DNA from: Adlercreutzia sp. ZJ473
GTDB taxonomy: Bacteria > Actinomycetota > Coriobacteriia > Coriobacteriales > Eggerthellaceae
Reading direction: 5' to 3'
DNA: 64,000 bases
NCBI RefSeq assembly: GCF_013185065.1
Contig: NZ_JAAVTO010000007.1
Span: 1-64,000 of the forward strand
Shown here: positions 16,325-26,309 of the stretch, piece by piece
Layout of the letters: the number at the start of each line of letters is the position of its first letter
How positions within the stretch are numbered: position 1 is the stretch's first letter
Program-made: the position numbers and the translations under genes
The notes under the pieces: model-generated
Database searches by the model: none
The model's input: the letters and a program-made list of their open reading frames with translations, nothing else
Told to the model about the DNA's origin: nothing

Positions 16325-17635
16325 ATGCTAAAGAGAAAAGCCGCTGACAGGCTCAAAGCATGGCTTGCGAACGACGAGAAGAAAGCCCTGCTCGTTTCCG
16401 GGGCAAGGCAGGTCGGCAAGACCTACCTCATCGACGCTTTCGTCGCCGAGCATTTCGATAACGTCGCGAAGTTCGATCTCGTCGAAGATGCCTCGGTCCA
16501 AGCATCATTCTCCCAAGCCACGAGCGCCGACGATCTCTTCCTTCGCATATCCCTGGCGGCGCGCGTGCCCCTCGTCCCAGGAAAGACGGTCGTGTTCATC
16601 GACGAGGTGCAAAAGGCGCCGGAAATCATGACCTTCGTGAAGTACCTCGTTAAGAACACGGAGCTGCGCTACGTGCTCTCGGGGTCGCTGCTGGGGATCA
16701 CGCTCGAGAACATCAGGTCCCAACCGGTCGGCTACGTACGCGAAGTCGAGATGTTCCCTCTCGACTTCGAGGAGTTCTGCTGGGCGAACGGCGTGAACGG
16801 ACAAGCTTTCGAAATGCTGTCCGAGTCAATCTCGAAGCAGGAGGAGGTCCCCGGATTTCTCCATGACCAGCTGCTCTCCCTGTACCACCGCTACCTCATC
16901 GTCGGCGGGATGCCCGCGGCAGTCTCCGCGTTCGTCGGAGGACGGGGAATCGACGCGGTGCGCAGCGAGCAGGCGGACATCCACGCCTTCTACAGGCGCG
17001 ACATCACGCAGTATGCCCCCAAGGAGCAGCGCCTTGTCATCCAGGACATCTACGATCTCATCCCGAGCGAGATCTCAGCGAGATCCAGGCGCTTCAAGCT
17101 TGGCTCGATTCCCGACGTGAAGAAGTTCAAGCAGGTCGACCAGGAGTTCCTGTGGCTCACGAAGGCCGGTGTCGCCATACCCGTGTTCGACGTCTCGGCC
17201 CCGACCCAGCCGCTCCTCGCAAGCGAGCAGCGCAACCGCTTCAAGCTCTTCTACCTCGACGTCGGGATGCTGACGAACACCTACTTCAAAACCGAGACGC
17301 TCGGACTGCTCGACGGCGACACACGGGCGAACCTCGGCGGCGTCTACGAGAACGCGGTTGCTCAGCAACTCCAATGCCACGGCTTCAGACCGCGCTACTT
17401 CACGTCCAAGAAAATAAGGGAACTCGATTTCGTGCTCGAGAGGGCTGATGGCTCGATAGTTGCCATCGAGGTGAAGTCGGGGAGCAGCTACATGACCCAT
17501 GCTGCGCTCGACAACGCCCTCGCCGTCCGTGATTATCACATCGACGAAGCGATCGTGCTGGCGGAAACCAACGTGAAGGTGTGCGACAGCATCACCTACC
17601 TGCCAGTTTATTCCGCATGCCTTCTTGCACCCTGA
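16325..17635 (+). CDS. AAA ATPase with DUF4143 / PD-(D/E)XK-like C-terminus
   Basis: The protein has 436 residues. Walker A is GARQVGKT (26-33), Walker B TVVFIDEVQKAPE, sensor segment YVLSGSLLGI. The C-terminal DUF4143 part ends with a restriction-nuclease-like signature, RELDFVLE and VAIEVKSG. Proteins of this family are common in gut bacteria and mobile regions; their biochemical role is not established. The start has GGGAGA seven to eight bases upstream. GC content is below that of flanking housekeeping genes, and it is surrounded by accessory genes, so horizontal origin is likely. Confidence 0.85.
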   Translation: MLKRKAADRLKAWLANDEKKALLVSGARQVGKTYLIDAFVAEHFDNVAKFDLVEDASVQASFSQATSADDLFLRISLAARVPLVPGKTVVFIDEVQKAPEIMTFVKYLVKNTELRYVLSGSLLGITLENIRSQPVGYVREVEMFPLDFEEFCWANGVNGQAFEMLSESISKQEEVPGFLHDQLLSLYHRYLIVGGMPAAVSAFVGGRGIDAVRSEQADIHAFYRRDITQYAPKEQRLVIQDIYDLIPSEISARSRRFKLGSIPDVKKFKQVDQEFLWLTKAGVAIPVFDVSAPTQPLLASEQRNRFKLFYLDVGMLTNTYFKTETLGLLDGDTRANLGGVYENAVAQQLQCHGFRPRYFTSKKIRELDFVLERADGSIVAIEVKSGSSYMTHAALDNALAVRDYHIDEAIVLAETNVKVCDSITYLPVYSACLLAP

Positions 17636-17940
17636 TCGGTGCGATTCTTGGCGGAATCGCTGCTCTGGTTGATCCTTTTCTGCCTCTGTCCGAATATCCA
17701 AGGCAACCGGACGCCCTCATCTTGATGATTTCTGCAACGACGCGGTCGCACAATACCCAGTGGTTGAGCAATTTCCATTGGCCATTCGAGGCCGTTCGAT
17801 CCCCACGCGTGCCTGACGCAGCTTAGACGCAGCGGATTCTCATCAGAATTTACGGCAGTTGCCTACAAAGTTCTTCTGCTCTGTTGTCCAATTCGACTTA
17901 ATATGAAAAAATATACAGTAATAACGGACAAGTGGAGGAG
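17636..17940. promoter_or_regulatory. Intergenic region with TTGTCC/GGACAA dyad before second AbiEi
   Basis: The first 240 bases hold nothing recognisable. The last 60 are AT-rich and contain TTGTCC (17884-17889) facing GGACAA (17926-17931), spanning an AT-rich centre with TATACAGT. As with the first AbiEi gene, an inverted repeat lies over the likely promoter, so autoregulation is plausible. Confidence 0.4.
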
Positions 17941-18531
17941 ATGGAAACGAAAGAGATACTTGACATCGCCGAGGCGGGCGGCGGAATGGTGACGACCGCC
18001 CAGGTCGTCGCCGCGGGGATTCCCCGCGCCAGGATCACCGACATGGTGAGATCCGGCGTGCTTGAGCGCGTGCAGCGCGGCGTCTACTGCCTGGCTGGTT
18101 CCTGGGAGGACGAGTTCCTTGCGACGCAGCTCCGCTTCCCCAAGGGGGTCTTCTCGGACGGCACCGCGCTCTACCTGCACGACTCGACCGACAGGACACC
18201 CTTCCGGCTGACGATGACGTTCCCCCGTTCCTACCGGGCAACGTCGGCACGGGAGGCGGGAATAGAGGTGAGGACCTGCGCCGACGCCGTCCTCGGCCTG
18301 GGGCTCTCCACCCTGGGGACCCCCTACGGCAACGAGGTGCGCGCCTACGACCTCGAGCGCACCCTCTGTGACCTGGTGCGCGGCCGCTCCGTCGTGGACG
18401 CCCAGGTGTTCAATCCCGCCATAAAGCAGTATGTGCGCAGCAAGGACAGAGATATTCAGAAACTGCTCGAATACGCTCGCGCCCTAGGCGTCGAGGGCAA
18501 GATCCGCGGATACCTGGAGGTGCTGCTATGA
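17941..18531 (+). CDS. Second AbiEi-family antitoxin-like repressor
   Basis: About 196 residues. The N-terminal winged-helix segment (EAGGGMVTTAQVVAAGIPRA, RVQRGVYCLAG) and the AbiEi core (GTALYLHDSTDRTPFRLTMT, VRAYDLERTLCDLVRGRSVV) match the AbiEi antitoxin family but differ clearly from the copy at 10187. The start is uncertain: an ATG at 17941 has GGAGGAG directly abutting it, and a GTG lies at 17932. The stop overlaps the next ATG (18528) by four bases, where a toxin gene would be expected, but that gene is broken. Confidence 0.75.
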   Translation: METKEILDIAEAGGGMVTTAQVVAAGIPRARITDMVRSGVLERVQRGVYCLAGSWEDEFLATQLRFPKGVFSDGTALYLHDSTDRTPFRLTMTFPRSYRATSAREAGIEVRTCADAVLGLGLSTLGTPYGNEVRAYDLERTLCDLVRGRSVVDAQVFNPAIKQYVRSKDRDIQKLLEYARALGVEGKIRGYLEVLL

Positions 18532-18696: not shown

Positions 18697-19161
18697 TCAT
18701 GACGTGCGGCCTTCGTCAAGTCCAGCCCCCGCCAGGCGCCTCATGGTCTCGGCAACGCCGCGCCCGAGCGGGCGGGAGAAGAACCCGGAAAGGACGCTCG
18801 CGTCGCCGTCCGGCCCGCACTCCGCGAGCATCGCCAGCTCCCTCACGATCTCCACGTGGTGGGCGAACGCCAGTGCAGCGTAGGTGTTGCAGACGAGCTC
18901 GGCAAGGTAGGACCTCCCTTCGGTGGGATCGAGCGCGCCCCGCGCCTCGAGCCTGTTGGCGACGGACACGGGGTCTGTCGGCTTTCCCTCCGCGATGAGC
19001 AGCAGCATGGTCTCGAAGAGCGCTTGGTGTGCCTTTCGGAAGAAGCTGTCGGGCTCAAGCCGCGAGGCTGCCTTTATGGCACCCTCTTCGCTGAGGAGAC
19101 AGATGGCTAGCACCGCTTGCTCTGCCTCGATGTCTCTCGGTGCGCTTGTCTGCGTAGTCAT
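18697..19161 (-). CDS. DnaB N-terminal-domain-only protein
   Basis: These 154 residues match only the N-terminal domain of the replicative helicase DnaB: RDIEAEQAVLAICLL, LEPDSFFRKAHQALFETMLL, KPTDPVSVANRLEARGALD and the YLAEL/HHVEIVRELA helices. The RecA-like ATPase domain, linker helix and Walker motifs are absent. The ATG has AGGAG seven to nine bases upstream. In full DnaB this domain forms the trimeric collar and contacts primase. A stand-alone copy might bind DnaB or primase, or be a relic of a mobile-element helicase. The last 40 residues are Gly/Arg-rich. Confidence 0.75.
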   Translation of the reverse strand: MTTQTSAPRDIEAEQAVLAICLLSEEGAIKAASRLEPDSFFRKAHQALFETMLLLIAEGKPTDPVSVANRLEARGALDPTEGRSYLAELVCNTYAALAFAHHVEIVRELAMLAECGPDGDASVLSGFFSRPLGRGVAETMRRLAGAGLDEGRTS

Positions 19162-20189: not shown

Positions 20190-20347
20190 AATCGGCTGCA
20201 CATGAAGAGAGGCTTGCCTTTATAGAGCCTTCCAACACGCATCCCGCAAAACACTCCTCCGCATTGCTTGCACTCGAGATCTTTTACGTTAAAGCCAAAT
20301 AGATTCTCTTCGGCAAGCTCAATGAATCTGCGGGGTTCCGTAGCCAT
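20190..20347 (-). pseudogene. Truncated four-cysteine small-protein gene
   Basis: The gene starts at ATG 20347, four bases after the stop of the CCG protein gene, and encodes MATEPRRFIELAEENLFGFN and then a CKQCGGVFC...FMCS segment that looks like a zinc or iron-sulfur ribbon. After about 55 residues (near 20190) the frame passes into a GC-rich sequence with no coding character on this strand. The natural 3' end therefore seems lost at a rearrangement junction. Function is unknown. Confidence 0.45.
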
Positions 20348-20351
20348 CAGG

Positions 20352-21023
20352 TCATTCTTTCCTGAACTTCCCGGAAACAAGCTCGATCATGTTGATGGCA
20401 TCCTTGCCGCCAGCCTCTAGACCCATATCGCACGCGAAGCAGTAGCAGCAGACCTCGTCAGTTGGAATGGCGGCTGCATGCTTATCGAGCCTTGCCTGCA
20501 TGGCGTCGGGATCGAGTGGGGTGAAGATACCTCGCTCTGCAGCATCCTCCACGTATCGCTTGGGAGCGAAGCTGGCATCTTGCTCGGGAGCGGCCCTCAG
20601 AAAAGACTGCCCGCAGAAACGTGACTCTTCGCGCGAATCGGGAAGCTCAACGACCTCTATGCCCATCTTGCGCATGAGGCTGCGAACGGCATCCTGCACT
20701 TCGATGCGGTCGTAAGCGCGTCCACAATCCTGGACGCCCATCGTCTTTCCCTCATAGGATGGAAGCGGAAAGCCGGGATCGTTGTCGACGAGCACCCAAA
20801 TGTTCTCCAAGTCACCATTTTCGGCATCTTCGTCTATCATTGCCATGCAGTTGTTGCAGATGCAAACAGCGGTATCGTCGGCGGTAAGCGATTGATGATC
20901 CGTTCGGCAGCATCCTACGATCTCATCAGCGTACCCGCGACCGATAACTTGCTCTGCCAGCCACTCGCTAGCTTCAGGATAACGCGCCTTCACTTTGCAT
21001 CCTGGAAAGAACTTTCTGCTCAT
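20352..21023 (-). CDS. CCG-type iron-sulfur protein (HdrB-like)
   Basis: A 223-residue soluble protein with CCG-domain spacing: FFPGCKVKA near the start, VGCCRT, CICNNC, then a second set with CGRAYD, RFCGQSF and CCYCFAC. This resembles heterodisulfide reductase subunit B-like cysteine-rich domains that bind a non-cubane 4Fe-4S cluster. The ATG at 21023 is preceded by GGAGGTC. Codon use and GC are lower than the surrounding chromosome. It is co-oriented with and four bases from the truncated cysteine-rich gene at 20190-20347. The partner and substrate are unknown. Confidence 0.65.
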   Translation of the reverse strand: MSRKFFPGCKVKARYPEASEWLAEQVIGRGYADEIVGCCRTDHQSLTADDTAVCICNNCMAMIDEDAENGDLENIWVLVDNDPGFPLPSYEGKTMGVQDCGRAYDRIEVQDAVRSLMRKMGIEVVELPDSREESRFCGQSFLRAAPEQDASFAPKRYVEDAAERGIFTPLDPDAMQARLDKHAAAIPTDEVCCYCFACDMGLEAGGKDAINMIELVSGKFRKE

Positions 21024-21124
21024 ATTTGACCTCCCGCATGAAGGCTGACTGCTTAAGGCACGGAAAAATGCCCGCGGCCCCTTAATTGACACTAGAGACG
21101 GCAATCAACCTCTTCAATCTTCAA

Positions 21125-21216
21125 CTCGGATTTACGGTACAACAATACTCGGATTTGTGTTGGTCATTTATTCGGATTTGTGGTGTCGACTTATTCGGAT
21201 TTACGGAAAACCGAAA
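21125..21216. repeat. Four direct repeats with exact 23-bp period
   Basis: The core (C/T)TCGGATTT(A/G) starts at 21125, 21148, 21171 and 21194, each exactly 23 bases apart, and GG follows in three copies. The bases between cores vary. It lies upstream of the CCG gene (minus). Subterminal repeats of IS21-like elements and arrays of regulator sites both look like this; no transposase is next to it. Confidence 0.75.
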
Positions 21217-21263
21217 GTCCTTGGGTAACTTGATGGCACGTTATAATGCACCGTCTCTTCGTG

Positions 21264-21452
21264 TCGTCCTGAGCGAAGCCGTCTCCCTCTCGTGTCGTCC
21301 TGAGCGAGCGAAGCTAGTCGAAGGATCTGGGCTCGGGCACGGCACGCTTGAGTGCGCTTCCCTCTCGCGACCAGATCCTTCGACTCCGCGCCCTTCGGGC
21401 GCTCCGCTCAGGATGACATGCAGGAGGACGTCCGGGTGGGCGCTCCGCTCAG
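21264..21452. repeat. Dispersed palindromic intergenic repeat cluster
   Basis: GTCGTCCTGAGCGA occurs twice on the plus strand (around 21264 and 21296). It is followed by GTCGAAGGATCTG and then, inverted, CAGATCCTTCGAC and two copies of GCTCCGCTCAGGATGA. The opposing halves could form a long imperfect hairpin. The motif TCCTGAGCGAAG...GAAGGATCT is a known widespread intergenic repeat type in many bacteria. The stretch between here and vsr has no gene. Confidence 0.65.
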
Positions 21453-21584
21453 GATGAGGCAAGGAGGCGGAGCGCATTCTGCTTGAGTGGCATATGGAGA
21501 AGAACGGCACATTTCGCCTGAGATGGCGCAAGAAAAAGATCGGCACATTCTGTTTGGGACGGCCTGGGGAAAGAAGCCGAAAGG

Positions 21585-22142
21585 TCAGGGGCGGCGGACG
21601 GCTTCGTGGAGCTTGCGGCGGGTGGCTTCGAGATGGCTCTTCTTGAGCTCGTGCTCCCAGATGTAGACCACCTTCCAGCCGGCTTCCTCGAGGGCGCGCC
21701 GCGTGCGCGCGTCGCGCTCGACGTTGCGGTCGAACTTGGCCTGCCAGTACGCCACGTTGCTCTTAGGCTGCGGCAGGTCGCACACGGGGCAGCGATGCCA
21801 GAAGCACCCCATGACGAAGATCGCGATCTTGCGGCCGGGGTACGCGATGTCGGGGTGCCCCGGCGCCTTCTTCCAGTCGAGCCGGTAGCCGGGATAGCCC
21901 AGCTCGCGCAGCAGGGCACGCACCTTGAGCTCGGGCGTGGTGTCGCGCCGCTTGTTGCCCTGCATGCACTTGCGCACCGCCGCGCTCGTGGCGGCGGGCG
22001 CCTGGCGCAGGACGTCATCGGCTGTGGACGCCAGTGCGGGCGGGCGCGGGTCATCAGCCGCACCCGATGACGCGGGCGGGCGCGCATCGTCAGTTCCGCC
22101 CGCCAGCGCGGGCGCGCCCTCTTCGACCTCGGGTTTTTCCAC
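21585..22142 (-). CDS. vsr: Very short patch repair endonuclease
   Basis: Nicks next to T:G mismatches that arise by deamination of 5-methylcytosine. The Vsr core occupies residues 55-180: KRRDTTPELKVRALLRELGY, GHPDIAYPGRKIAIF with catalytic D98, and MGCFWHRCPVC with H116. Residues 1-54 are a low-complexity Ala/Asp/Pro tail (DDARPPA, DDPRPPA) absent from typical Vsr. The annotated GTG at 22142 may therefore be too early; a later start near residue 53 would give the usual size. No cytosine methyltransferase gene is in the window. It lies nine bases after coaBC. Confidence 0.85.
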   Translation of the reverse strand: MEKPEVEEGAPALAGGTDDARPPASSGAADDPRPPALASTADDVLRQAPAATSAAVRKCMQGNKRRDTTPELKVRALLRELGYPGYRLDWKKAPGHPDIAYPGRKIAIFVMGCFWHRCPVCDLPQPKSNVAYWQAKFDRNVERDARTRRALEEAGWKVVYIWEHELKKSHLEATRRKLHEAVRRP

Positions 22143-22151
22143 GCCGCGCTC

Positions 22152-23465
22152 CTACCGCAGGCCCACAATCGCGTCCAGGACGGCGTCCGCCAGCGCGGCC
22201 TTGCTCATGAGCGGCAGCTCGCGCGTGCCCGCCGCGTCGACGAGCCACACCTTGTTGTCGTCGGTGCCGAAGGCGCGGCCCTCCCCCACCTCGTTGGCGA
22301 CGACGAGGTCGGCGTGCTTGGACGCAAGCTTGCGGCGGGCGTTGCCGAGCACGTCGTCCGTCTCGGCGGCAAAGCCCACCACGCGCTGGTCGGCGCGCTT
22401 TTCCCGCGCGAGCGTCGCGAGGACGTCAGGGTTCTCCACGAGCTCGACGGCGCGAAGCGCCGCGTCGTCGGCGCCCTTCTTGAGCTTGCGGTCGGCGGGG
22501 CGAGCGGGCCGGAAGTCAGCTACCGCCGCCGTGAACACCGCGATGTCAGCGCCTGCGAAGGGCGCGCGCGCCGCGTCGAGCATCTCGCGCGCCGTCTTGA
22601 CGCGGATCACGTCCACGCCCGCTGGCGCCTCGAGCGCCACCGGCCCCGAGACGAGCGTCACCTGCGCCCCGCGCGCCGCCGCGGCAGCTGCCAGCGCGTA
22701 TCCCATCTTGCCGCTCGAGTAGTTGGAGAGGTAGCGCACCGCGTCGAGGGGCTCCACGGTCGGGCCGGCCGTCACCATCACCCGCAGGCCCGCCAGGTCG
22801 CGCGCGGGCGCGCCGGAGGCCGCTGGGCCGGCAGATGCCGACGCGCCAGGAGCCGCTGATTCGCCAACGGCTGCGCACGCTGGCGGCTCCGCGCCTTCGC
22901 AGCCGCCCGTTGCGCCCGTCGCGCGCGCCTCGCGCAGCGCGTCGAGCGTGGCGCCCACGATGACGTCCACGTCAGCCAGGCGCCCGCGGCCCACGTCCCC
23001 GCAGGCCAGGTACCCCTCGCCCGCCTCGATGACGCGCACGCCGCGCCCACGCAGGCGCGCGAGGTTCTCCTGCGTGGCGGCCGCCTCGTACATGTGCACG
23101 TTCATGGCGGGCGCGATCAGAAGCGGCGAGGTGGTGGCGAGGGCCGTGGTGGTGAGCAGGTCGTCGGCGATGCCGCAGGCTATCTTGGCCGCCACGTTGG
23201 CCGTGCACGGCGCGATGAGGAACGCGTCGCACTCCTGTGCGAGCGAGACGTGGTGGATGGGGTCGCTCGCGTCGTCGAACAGGCCCACGGCGACTGGCTC
23301 GTGCGTGAGGGCGCGGAACGTGGTGGGGCCCACGAACTCGCATGCGTGCTCGGTCATGACCACCTTGCACCGCACGCCCGCCTTCTGCAGGCCGCGCACG
23401 ACCTCGCAGCTCTTGTAGGCGGCGATGCACCCGGTCACGCCCACCAAAACACACGGTTCGCTCAT
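22152..23465 (-). CDS. coaBC: Bifunctional phosphopantothenoylcysteine decarboxylase/synthetase
   Basis: Makes 4'-phosphopantetheine precursors for CoA. The CoaC flavoprotein domain occupies 1-180 (GVTGCIAAYKSCEVVRGLQ, catalytic H in PIHHVSLA, PAMNVHMY, C155 in GYLACGDVGRGR). The CoaB synthetase domain occupies about 223-437 (VTAGPTVEPLDAVRYLSNY, SSGKMGYALA, KLKK, GFAAETDD). Between them, residues 180-222 form an Ala/Gly/Ser-rich linker longer than usual. It is transcribed with vsr and probably hemH. It functionally complements coaX at 56922. Confidence 0.95.
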   Translation of the reverse strand: MSEPCVLVGVTGCIAAYKSCEVVRGLQKAGVRCKVVMTEHACEFVGPTTFRALTHEPVAVGLFDDASDPIHHVSLAQECDAFLIAPCTANVAAKIACGIADDLLTTTALATTSPLLIAPAMNVHMYEAAATQENLARLRGRGVRVIEAGEGYLACGDVGRGRLADVDVIVGATLDALREARATGATGGCEGAEPPACAAVGESAAPGASASAGPAASGAPARDLAGLRVMVTAGPTVEPLDAVRYLSNYSSGKMGYALAAAAAARGAQVTLVSGPVALEAPAGVDVIRVKTAREMLDAARAPFAGADIAVFTAAVADFRPARPADRKLKKGADDAALRAVELVENPDVLATLAREKRADQRVVGFAAETDDVLGNARRKLASKHADLVVANEVGEGRAFGTDDNKVWLVDAAGTRELPLMSKAALADAVLDAIVGLR

Positions 23466-23507
23466 CGTTCGTCCTTTCGCGCGCTCCTCGCCGCCCCTGC
23501 CGCGGGC

Positions 23508-24716
23508 CTAGTCGAGCGCATCTCCCACGTACGGCGCGAGCACGTGCGCGAGAACGCGCACGTGCGCCTTGCTCTTGTTGAGGCACGGCACGTACGTGAA
23601 CGCCTCATGCGCCGCGGGCGTCGCAGGCGCCGCAGGCGCTCCGGACGCCGCATGCGCGCCAGCCCCCTTCGCCATGCGCGCCGTGCCGGCCTTCCCTTCC
23701 GCGCTCGCGCCGGCCGCGCGCAGCGCCGCCAGATAGCCCGGCTTGAGCTCGCGCTCCACGTCGTAGAGCGTCTCGAGGCAGTCCACCGCGAAGTTCGGGC
23801 ACACCATGAACACGCGCGAGCGCGCGCCCGACTTCGCCCAGCTCGCAAGCGTCTGGGACGCGAAAGGCGCCAGCCACTCACGCCCCTTGTCGAAGCGGCA
23901 CTGGTAGGCCACCGTCCAGCGCCTGCGCTCGAGCCCGAGCTCGTTGGCCACGCCCAGGCTCGTCGCGCCCGCCTGGAGCTCGTAGGTGTCGCCGCGCTCG
24001 ATGTCCGAGAGCGGGATGGAGTGGAACGAGAACAGCAGGCGGTCGTCCGAGTCCACGTCAAAGCCCGCGCGCCTCACCGAGGCCGCGATGGCGCGCAGGT
24101 AGACCGGGTCGTCGTGGTAGCTGTCGATGACGGTGACCTCGCCCTTGAAGCGCGCCTTGCGCACCGCGCGCGCCACGCCGTCGGACACCGCGCCCGTGGT
24201 GGAGTACGCGCCCTGGGGGTACAGCGGCAGCACCACGAGGGAGTCGCACCCCGAAGAGCGCAGGTCGCGCACCGCATGGGGCAGGGTGGGCTCGCTGTAG
24301 CTCATGGCGAAGCGCACCTCCACGTCAAGCCCGCGCTCGCGGTAGTACGCCGCGAGCCCCTGGGAGAGGCGCTCGTGCGCGACGATGAGCGGCGAGCCCT
24401 CAGGCGTCCAGATGGCCTGGTACTTCTCGGCCGAGGCCACGGCGCGCTTCGGCAGGATGAACAGGTGCAGGATGCACCACCACAGCACGCGGTTCATCGG
24501 CGCGATGCGCGGGTCCATGAGGAAGCGCCCCAGATACGCGCGCACCGCCGCCGGCGTGGGCTCCTCGGGCGTCCCCGTGTTCACGAGGAGCACGCCCGTC
24601 TTCGCGCGCCCGCCCACAGCAGCGCCCGCATCCGCCGTGCCGCGCGCCCGCCCGGCACGACGCCCGCCTGAGCCGGTGCTCGTTCCCGCATGCGCCCTGC
24701 TCGCGGCCTCAGTCAT
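23508..24716 (-). CDS. hemH: Ferrochelatase (protoporphyrin or coproporphyrin type)
   Basis: Inserts ferrous iron into the porphyrin. Core motifs are GVLLVNTGTPEEPT (41-54), LPLYPQGAYSTTGA, the catalytic H232 in FSFHSIP, and acidic residue E315 in DCLETLYD. Residues 1-38 are a low-complexity leader, and residues 333-372 form an Ala/Gly-rich insert just before the conserved YVPCLN. Monoderm actinobacteria usually use the coproporphyrin route (CpfC), but sequence alone does not decide here. The ATG lies inside the end of the rluD-type gene (8-base overlap), indicating coupling. It is distant from the hem operon at 74-6209. Confidence 0.92.
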   Translation of the reverse strand: MTEAASRAHAGTSTGSGGRRAGRARGTADAGAAVGGRAKTGVLLVNTGTPEEPTPAAVRAYLGRFLMDPRIAPMNRVLWWCILHLFILPKRAVASAEKYQAIWTPEGSPLIVAHERLSQGLAAYYRERGLDVEVRFAMSYSEPTLPHAVRDLRSSGCDSLVVLPLYPQGAYSTTGAVSDGVARAVRKARFKGEVTVIDSYHDDPVYLRAIAASVRRAGFDVDSDDRLLFSFHSIPLSDIERGDTYELQAGATSLGVANELGLERRRWTVAYQCRFDKGREWLAPFASQTLASWAKSGARSRVFMVCPNFAVDCLETLYDVERELKPGYLAALRAAGASAEGKAGTARMAKGAGAHAASGAPAAPATPAAHEAFTYVPCLNKSKAHVRVLAHVLAPYVGDALD

Positions 24717-25761
24717 AGATGACCCCCTCGATCGAGGGCTTCGGCGAGCGCGCCATGAGCGCGGCCACCTCCTCGCCCGCCGCTGTCTTGCCCATGCTGC
24801 GCTCCTTCAGGCCGTCGAGCACCGCGGCCAGGTCACGCGGCAGGTTGTCCGCGAAGGAGAGCTCCTCGCCCGTCAGGGGGTGCGCAAAGCCCACGCGGAA
24901 GGAGTGGAGGAACTGCCGCCTGAGGCCCAGCTGGGCCTCAGGGTCGCGCGGGCCGTTCGCAACGTACACCGGGTCGCCCACGATGGGGTGGCGCGTGTAC
25001 TGCATGTGCACGCGGATCTGGTGCGTGCGCCCCGTGAACAGCTTGCACTCGATGAGCGTGTAGCCCTCGTCGCGCCGGGCGTGCTCGAAGCGCTCGAGCA
25101 CCCGGAACGTCGTGATGGCCTCGCGCGCGGAGGGCACGTCGCGCACCGCCATGCGCGTGCGCTCGCTGGCCGCGCGCGCGATGGGCGCGTCGACCATGCC
25201 CGTGTCGTGCGCCATGACGCCGTGGACGAGCGCGATGTAGCGCCGGTCGATGGCGCGGGCGCGGATGTCGTCCATGAGCGCGCGCCCCGCCTCGTCGGTC
25301 TTGGCTGCGAGCATGAGCCCGCTCGTGTCGCGGTCGAGCCGGTGCACGATGCCGAGCCGGTCGTCCTCGCCCTGCACGTTGCACAGGTTCTCGGCCCCGC
25401 AGTGGAAGATGAGCGCGTTCACCAACGTGCCGTCGGCATGGTCGACGCTCGGGTGGCACACGAGCCCCACCTGCTTCGAGAGCACGATGAGGTCCTCATC
25501 CTCGTAGCGTATGTCCAGGTCGATGGGCTGTCCGTACACGGGGAGCTGCTCGGGCTCCTCGTCGAGCTCGCAGACGACGGCCTCGCCCGCGCTCACCTTG
25601 TGCTTCTTCGCGGCAACGCGCCCGCCCACGAGCACGCGCCCCTCCTCGACGGCGCGCGCGGCCGCCGAGCGGCTCGCGTACAGGGCGTGCTCGGCCAGAA
25701 GCGCGTCGAGGCGCTTGCCCGCGTCAGCGGCGGTGGCCACGTGGCAGACCGAGCGGCTCAT
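24709..25761 (-). CDS. rluD: RluA/RluD-family pseudouridine synthase
   Basis: Converts uridines in 23S rRNA to pseudouridine. The protein has 350 residues: an S4 RNA-binding domain (about 18-65, KRLDALLAEHALYASRSAAA, GRVLVGGRV) and the catalytic domain with D143 in HRLDRDTSGLM, plus FTGRTHQIRVHMQ. The ATG at 25761 overlaps the lspA stop as ATGA, which is the classical lspA-rluD coupling. An upstream in-frame ATG seven codons earlier would sit further inside lspA. Exact rRNA site specificity (RluD versus paralogue) is inferred from context. Confidence 0.92.
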   Translation of the reverse strand: MSRSVCHVATAADAGKRLDALLAEHALYASRSAAARAVEEGRVLVGGRVAAKKHKVSAGEAVVCELDEEPEQLPVYGQPIDLDIRYEDEDLIVLSKQVGLVCHPSVDHADGTLVNALIFHCGAENLCNVQGEDDRLGIVHRLDRDTSGLMLAAKTDEAGRALMDDIRARAIDRRYIALVHGVMAHDTGMVDAPIARAASERTRMAVRDVPSAREAITTFRVLERFEHARRDEGYTLIECKLFTGRTHQIRVHMQYTRHPIVGDPVYVANGPRDPEAQLGLRRQFLHSFRVGFAHPLTGEELSFADNLPRDLAAVLDGLKERSMGKTAAGEEVAALMARSPKPSIEGVIYD

Positions 25762-26309
25762 GAGCGCTTCTCCTGCCGCCACTCGAGCGCGAGCGCCGCG
25801 AACACCAGGACGACGCCGCAGGTCACGCCGATGTCAGCCACGTTGAACACCGGGAAGTCGATGAACACAGGCTCGATGAAGTCCACCACGTACCCCAAGG
25901 CGAAGCGGTCGAGCGCGTTGCCGATGCCGCCTGCGAACACGAGCGCGAGCCCGACGCTCATCACCAGCGAGGAGGTGCGCGCCGCGGCCGCGGCGTAGGC
26001 CAGAAGCGCGCCGCACACCACGACGGCGAGCACGCCGAGCGCGAAGGTCATGTCGCCGAACATGCCCCACGCGGCGCCCGTGTTGTGCACGAGGCGCAGC
26101 TGGAAGATGCCCGCGAAGGGCCCGGCGATGAGCTCGCCGGGCTCGTAGGCGTTGAACGCCCGCTTGGAGACGATGTCGAGCACCAGCCACGCGCACGCCA
26201 CCGCGCAGAACGCAGCCAGGTTGCGGGCGCGCCGGTTCGCCGGGGCTGGGGCTGCCGCGCCCGCGTCCCCCACAGGCGCGCCCTCTTCGCAAAGTCGCTC
26301 GTCAACCAT
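25758..26309 (-). CDS. lspA: Lipoprotein signal peptidase (signal peptidase II)
   Basis: Membrane aspartyl protease that removes signal peptides from prolipoproteins. Four hydrophobic segments are visible, starting near residue 31. The catalytic aspartates are D134 in GGIGNALDRF and D159 in FNVADIG, and the VHNTGAAWGMF motif is conserved. It is 183 residues, with a short polar leader of about 30 residues. It lies between ileS and the rluD-type gene, a widely conserved gene order. Confidence 0.95.
   Translation of the reverse strand: MVDERLCEEGAPVGDAGAAAPAPANRRARNLAAFCAVACAWLVLDIVSKRAFNAYEPGELIAGPFAGIFQLRLVHNTGAAWGMFGDMTFALGVLAVVVCGALLAYAAAAARTSSLVMSVGLALVFAGGIGNALDRFALGYVVDFIEPVFIDFPVFNVADIGVTCGVVLVFAALALEWRQEKRS

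Follow-up and report, generated by a model that had tools for sequence, protein, structure and literature searches.

An orphan 23-bp repeat array in an Adlercreutzia genome as the probable operator of a lost PDC-S01 ATPase gene

We analysed a 64,000-nucleotide stretch of DNA from Adlercreutzia sp. ZJ473 (the window) and found that a four-unit repeat array in it is likely to be the promoter-side operator of a deleted gene of one ATPase family (class C below), whose members probably read private sites with a 23-bp period at their own promoters. The deleted gene would have encoded an AAA_14-DUF4143 ATPase (PDC-S01) combining a STAND-like ATPase, a predicted winged helix and a PD-(D/E)xK-type C-terminal domain. 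The main value of the window array is the general rule that it exposed.

The window array and its counterpart in a sister species

The 9-mer YTCGGATTT starts at 21125, 21148, 21171 and 21194 of the window. These are the core starts given by an earlier sequence-only reading; they hold for the 9-mer but are one base low for the 8-mer TCGGATTT, which is found at 21126, 21149, 21172 and 21195. The four copies follow each other in equal steps of exactly 23 bp, as that reading had stated. No further copy of TCGGATTT was found on either strand of the 64-kb window, and it was the sole 8-mer there with four copies at an equal spacing of 12-60 bp. We used an array score (three units at one period of 12-60 bp in a 9-base window, with a maximum of 18 and a threshold of 16) to compare the site with the rest of the window. 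When the window was divided into 473 overlapping 270-bp tiles, 15 of them scored at least 16 at some lag, with a lag of exactly 23 at the array only. In the 2.63-Mb genome a two-unit pattern was restricted to the array site (three overlapping matches), and the reversed-pattern control gave none.

The repeated part of each unit is the core of about 9 bp alone. The remainder varies between units, so the array is not a simple tandem duplication. The GC content of the array-bearing gap is 42%, compared with 64% window-wide. A step of 23 bp corresponds to about 2.2 helical turns, so neighbouring sites are turned by roughly 70 degrees, and the earlier proposal of a protein array on one DNA face was inexact in this respect.

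Table 1. Features at and around the window array
Feature	Position	Strand	Remarks
PDC-S01 ATPase gene, class B	16325..17635	+	Upstream 33-bp periodicity, score 13, sub-threshold
Cysteine-rich left neighbour	20352..21104	-	No Pfam match; not the array owner
Orphan operator array (candidate)	21125..21216	+	Four 23-bp units, core YTCGGATTT; array upstream of an intact ATPase gene in G002
TATAAT, candidate -10 box of the putative lost gene's promoter, rightward	21242..21247	+	Sequence
REP/MITE-like inverted-repeat element at the expected ATPase gene position	21257..21473	.	Also in G002, past the lost segment
vsr (mismatch endonuclease), right flank	21588..22142	-	Pfam Vsr 3.7e-18; conserved in G002
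coaBC, right-flank anchor	22152..23465	-	Conserved in G002

The same locus was identified in a second species of the genus (G002). Its right flank, from vsr to past coaBC, is 90-95% identical to that of the window (90% at the nucleotide level over window 21591-26264). Window 21086-21191 aligns with positions 108-213 of the G002 locus (L276) at 76.6% identity, repeats included. Directly after the G002 array lies an intact ATPase gene (L276 253-1560), which matched the class C HMM with an E-value of 1.5e-167 and the PADLOC PDC-S01 model PDLC04790 with an E-value of 6e-54. The REP-like element is common to both species and is first met in G002 at L276 6465. Since it lies so far downstream there, the window lacks about 6.2 kb, which in G002 holds the genes for the PDC-S01 ATPase, an MT-A70 methylase and a BglII-type endonuclease. 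The left flanks of the two arrays differ, and the G002 contig ends on that side; homology of the arrays is thus based on the alignment of about 107 bp (76.6%) together with the common right flank. From these comparisons the window array appears to be the operator left behind, as a scar, by a candidate-defence gene that was lost. The sequence-only reading had remarked that no gene of the kinds it considered was adjacent, which is correct for the window; the ATPase gene would be missing because it was deleted.

Three HMMs (classes A-C) gave no match to an ATPase remnant at 20300-22300. A borderline tblastn match at 20940-21026 (E 0.1) was considered as a remnant and taken as chance. A replication initiator was absent from the scanned neighbours, which are vsr, coaBC and a protein without Pfam match. 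About 2 kb from the array, an apparently truncated ORF (18697-19161) carries the N-terminal domain of DnaB helicase alone (Pfam 9.3e-26), and an AbiEi-type antitoxin-like gene is found at 17932-18531 (Pfam AbiEi_4 5.3e-16). The segment L276 1-6460, which corresponds to window 21205-21289, looks like a small defence island beside vsr, lost in the window genome.

Arrays ahead of class C genes

PF13635 genes were present in 55 of 60 relatives, with up to 29 matches per genome. We sorted them into three working classes, with proteins of about 390-405 aa in A, about 430-490 aa in B and about 420 aa, with a GPKWCGKT Walker motif, in C. The 260 bp before and the 270 bp after each gene were scored, and loci selected by their array were left out. 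Among class C genes of the order and class, a non-random sample made up of the 30 best-match loci, 60 further loci among the matches listed and the genes of relatives, 79/102 reached the threshold upstream. The only periods observed were 23 (67 genes), 46 (7), 22 (4) and 44 bp (1). Downstream 8/101 reached it, five of them at 23 bp. Class A gave 7/26 upstream, all with period 23, and 1/24 downstream; for class B the values were 10/32, nine at 32-33 bp, and 0/32. None of 543 dinucleotide shuffles reached the threshold. When no cut-off was applied, the best lag was 22, 23, 24 or 46 in 96/102 class C upstream stretches and in 13/101 downstream ones, where about 8 were expected by chance, and it was 31-33 in 23/32 class B upstream stretches versus 3/32 downstream. 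Class B genes (e.g. L050, L056 and L058) have gene-specific arrays which step by 32-33 bp rather than 23.

Class C was present in 119 of 246 genomes of the class. A set of 21 genomes from other lineages was reached via 22 array-pattern loci and covered by 30 loci plus 20 among the matches listed; it comprised Bacteroidales, Clostridia, Saccharibacteria, Victivallales, methanogenic archaea and some Actinobacteria. Class C genes were found in 17 of the 21. With array-selected loci left out, an array stood upstream of 30/33 testable class C genes in this set (26 at 23 bp, four at 46 bp), while 4/36 downstream stretches reached the threshold, none at 23 bp.

Three CGGATTT cores at 23 bp were examined in 80 loci (82 stretches reported) from genome_contigs, and 29/80 had an ATPase gene within 500 bp, the array being always 5' of the gene and never 3'. 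No ATPase gene was recognised within 500 bp in the other 51, many of which consist of perfect tandem repeats or low-complexity runs or lie at contig ends. The CGGATTT/23-bp pattern is therefore not diagnostic of an ATPase gene by itself. Among 100 relatives, the three-unit pattern was detected in the genome of the window and in two others. In one (G005, L007) arrays of the same motif flank an AAA_14-DUF4143-type ATPase gene on both sides. In the other (G070, contig 53, L006/L089) all that comes after the array is a short C-terminal piece of a class C gene, which scored 28 bits against the class C model, so this locus looks like a second orphan array. In Limnoglobus roseus (L098, 3362-3552) about nine near-perfect 23-bp repeats with the same core overlap ORFs, with no class A-C ATPase nearby. 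Among IMG/VR viral contigs class C was rare, with six found by a pattern-based scan. Three viral contigs had a three-unit array but no class A-C gene, in surroundings which look incidental, and the generic CCAAA-CCGAA pattern matched none.

Across class C arrays the period is constant and the repeat sequence is gene-specific. The two-unit patterns of three arrays each occurred at one site per genome, two at the array's own gene and the third at the window orphan. Pairs of arrays from the same genome were no less similar than other pairs at equal protein identity, and so gave no sign of selection to differ. The sequence-only reading had named a protein-bound regulatory array among its explanations, to be refuted if the array were neither found elsewhere nor conserved. 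It was found elsewhere and is conserved, as arrays precede AAA_14-DUF4143 ATPase genes in relatives as well as in the sister species, and this part of the reading is supported.

Site anatomy, residue-base covariation and the ATPase fold

To define the site, 135 arrays were aligned on a 23-bp circle with both strands allowed and without use of the proteins; the frame is possibly one column off in some window-type arrays. The site spans about 14 columns (8-21), within which conservation inside an array is 0.84-0.95 (0.55 expected). Most columns vary between genes, and AAA at columns 12-14 is common to the family; for the columns outside the AAA the value inside an array is 0.84-0.93. Arrays contain 3-9 units, and in 20/135 their orientation relative to the gene is flipped. 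The median distance from the last core to the class C start codon is 73.5 bp. Class C arrays are placed at the gene's own promoter, often abutting or overlapping -10-like boxes. Such boxes were found in 66/89 cases versus 47.9 expected from shuffles, a modest enrichment, and strong ones after the last unit in 42/89 versus 22.1.

We compared 330 protein columns with 14 motif columns in 117 proteins at <80% identity, a test in which phylogeny is controlled in part only. The top pair was residue 250 and column 20, with a mutual information (MI) of 0.68, whereas the highest value among 12 permutations was 0.25. With the limit lowered to <60% identity (n=55) the MI was 0.62 versus a permutation maximum of 0.46, and at <50% (n=22) it was not significant (p 0.73). 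Column 20 was G in 33/38 arrays whose protein has Asp or Glu at 250, versus 10/79 for other residues. Lys at 250 went with GA at columns 19-20 in 11/15 and Pro with AA in 10/10. Among disjoint nearest pairs differing in acidity at 250, 35 were concordant, none discordant and nine showed no difference. In these contrasts residue 250 was the best of 103 columns, the runner-up scoring 19 to 2. The link between an acidic residue 250 and G at column 20 held separately in Actinobacteria (18/20 versus 5/50) and in other genomes (15/18 versus 5/29).

In the structural model (pLDDT 91.1), residue 250 stands second in a predicted helix, 249-261, and from the topology this helix is predicted to be the recognition helix of a winged helix. 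A second set of residues, 346, 389 and 400 in the C-terminal domain and 280 near the wing, covaried with columns 9-11: Lys or Arg at 346 went with G in 27/45 versus 4/72 otherwise, and Glu at 400 with G in 18/22 versus 4/93. An acidic side chain facing the cytosine opposite G, and Lys or Arg facing G, are ordinary recognition chemistry. An earlier consensus-based coevolution analysis had given a diffuse signal. A sliding-window analysis of the phase-aligned arrays peaked at 226-250, in the winged-helix region, and failed correction (FWER 0.20). The covariation suggests that each class C protein probably reads its own private array. The G002 protein has Arg at residue 250, for which the code is mixed, and as the window's own gene is gone there is no protein to which the code could be applied at the window array.

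The PADLOC PDC-S01 models matched 27/27 class C members and the G002 gene, and they also matched the scanned class A and class B genes, including the class B gene in the window. By structural comparison the modelled class C fold resembles solved STAND/NLR ATPases. The best whole-protein matches were the archaeal STAND ATPases 2qen (Z 15.1, 250 aligned, rmsd 4.3) and 2fna (Z 13.6), followed by NLR and CED-4. For the C-terminal domain alone the best matches listed were the PD-(D/E)xK nucleases McrC (Z 8.8), Can2 (Z 8.1) and EndoMS (Z 7.8), and Foldseek with this domain gave no match at E<=0.001. The PD-(D/E)xK residues E350, D352, E366 and K368 are invariant in 27/27 class C proteins. By modelled fold and residues the C-terminal domain appears to be of the PD-(D/E)xK nuclease type.

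Competing explanations and relation to known systems

Several other explanations of the window array were considered. The sequence-only reading had suggested the end of an IS21-like element; in a wider form of this idea the array would be repeated transposase sites at the end of such or another transposable element. The idea is a reasonable one given that a transposase-linked array exists: at locus L150 a 23-bp array with the same core (368-443) lies beside a transposase-like ORF (566-2128; Pfam Mu-transpos_C_2 3.7e-17, weak rve), and arrays of this kind are thus also possible at IS-type elements. However, the L150 protein gave no match in the window, where no inverted copy of the array was found among the inverted repeats of 20600-21800. 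The window array is single-copy in its genome, the G002 array stands before an ATPase gene, and the arrays of the 29/80 pattern loci are 5' of such a gene and never 3'. We consider a transposon end extremely improbable here. An ORF on L103 was tried as IstA and ruled out, its Pfam match being a type I restriction subunit. The iteron cluster, also proposed earlier, is not supported, given the ATPase gene in G002 and no replication initiator among the scanned neighbours in the window. That the array is instead the operator of the divergent left neighbour would fit its position about 100 bp upstream of that gene. Upstream of the orthologues in G001 (77% identity) and G034 (51%), though, the array was absent by reading (the sequence examined for the G033 orthologue was not a clean upstream region), and within the available G002 sequence the array has no left-gene homologue alongside. 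This makes such a role very improbable.

It could also be argued that the ATPase gene moves as a cassette together with its arrays, the array being a recombination site and the window showing an excised one. The similar arrays on both sides of the gene in G005 and the multi-copy nature of the family, with its up to 29 PF13635 matches, speak for this. Against it, downstream arrays are rare (the 8/101 above), and at tandem genes a downstream array can belong to the next ATPase gene (L065). In addition, the loss relative to G002 is about 6.2 kb including other genes, not the ATPase gene alone, and we find a cassette improbable. A closer rival accepts that the ATPase binds the arrays and treats them as an assembly, safety-dock or cleavage site, not a transcription operator. 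The invariant E350, D352, E366 and K368, the covariation of C-terminal-domain residues with motif columns 9-11 and the flipped orientation of 20/135 arrays are consistent with it. The arrays are nevertheless promoter-side and often abut -10-like boxes, which leaves this alternative rather unlikely in our judgement.

In the preferred explanation, an operator at the gene's own promoter, class C genes carry 3-9 private sites of about 14 bp at a fixed 23-bp period ahead of its start codon. One end of the site would be read by the predicted recognition helix and the other by the C-terminal domain, with the conserved AAA between, and several protomers would line up along the array. Direct binding would regulate transcription of the gene itself and would keep a nuclease-armed sensor quiet until triggered. 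Judged from position, regulation is most likely repression rather than activation, because the arrays abut or overlap -10-like boxes. The part apparently taken by the nuclease-type domain in reading the site makes it attractive that binding may also control this domain. More tentatively, PDC-S01 proteins might be self-addressed nucleases: rows of protomers would be parked on private promoter arrays through a residue-to-base code across two domains, parking would silence the gene and hold the protein inactive, and disturbance of host DNA or transcription by phage would release and activate it. If this were true, each paralogue would act as a sensor tuned independently of the others in its genome.

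The array and the residue-base code would provide a first mechanistic handle on PDC-S01, as they predict the binding target of each protein and open the family to ordinary binding and reporter assays. Orphan arrays could serve as footprints of lost defence genes. Recognition of its own promoter by an enzyme-type candidate, through a helix-turn-helix and a nuclease-type domain, would come as a surprise to specialists.

The anti-phage role of PDC-S01 (COG1373-like, Pfam AAA_14 + DUF4143) has candidate status. One account ranks it fourth among the most common defence types in prokaryotes, counting 29,494 systems in bacteria and 9,986 in archaea, and says that validation is pending for most such candidates (PMC12988326). 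The genes behind our arrays match the PDC-S01 models. In the accessible parts of two accounts PDC-S01 is a single-gene candidate yet to be validated, and an upstream array is not mentioned (PMC12988326, PMC13356809). Searches of open-access PMC papers listed no report of repeat arrays before DUF4143, COG1373 or PDC-S01 genes. Direct repeats near two helical turns are also known from plasmid iterons and IS21 ends, but here the array is 5' of an ATPase gene with no initiator or transposase gene found alongside. STAND-type regulators at promoters have a precedent in MalT, which has a separate C-terminal DNA-binding domain, and to our knowledge neither MalT nor IniR has a nuclease-type domain. IniR, in the part of its description available, is a promoter-binding STAND regulator whose ATPase domain is likened to SSO1545, the second-best PDB match of the class C model, and it binds DNA via a separate C-terminal DNA-binding domain (PMC5760070). 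The class C site differs from those of IniR and MalT in being private to each gene and at its own promoter. RptR, as far as the accessible text describes it, is a small, separate repressor which binds three direct repeats within the promoter of a defence island and has one conserved site (PMC12255303). Class C shares with it the direct repeats in a defence-type promoter, whereas in class C the apparent reader is the ATPase-nuclease itself and each gene has a site of its own.
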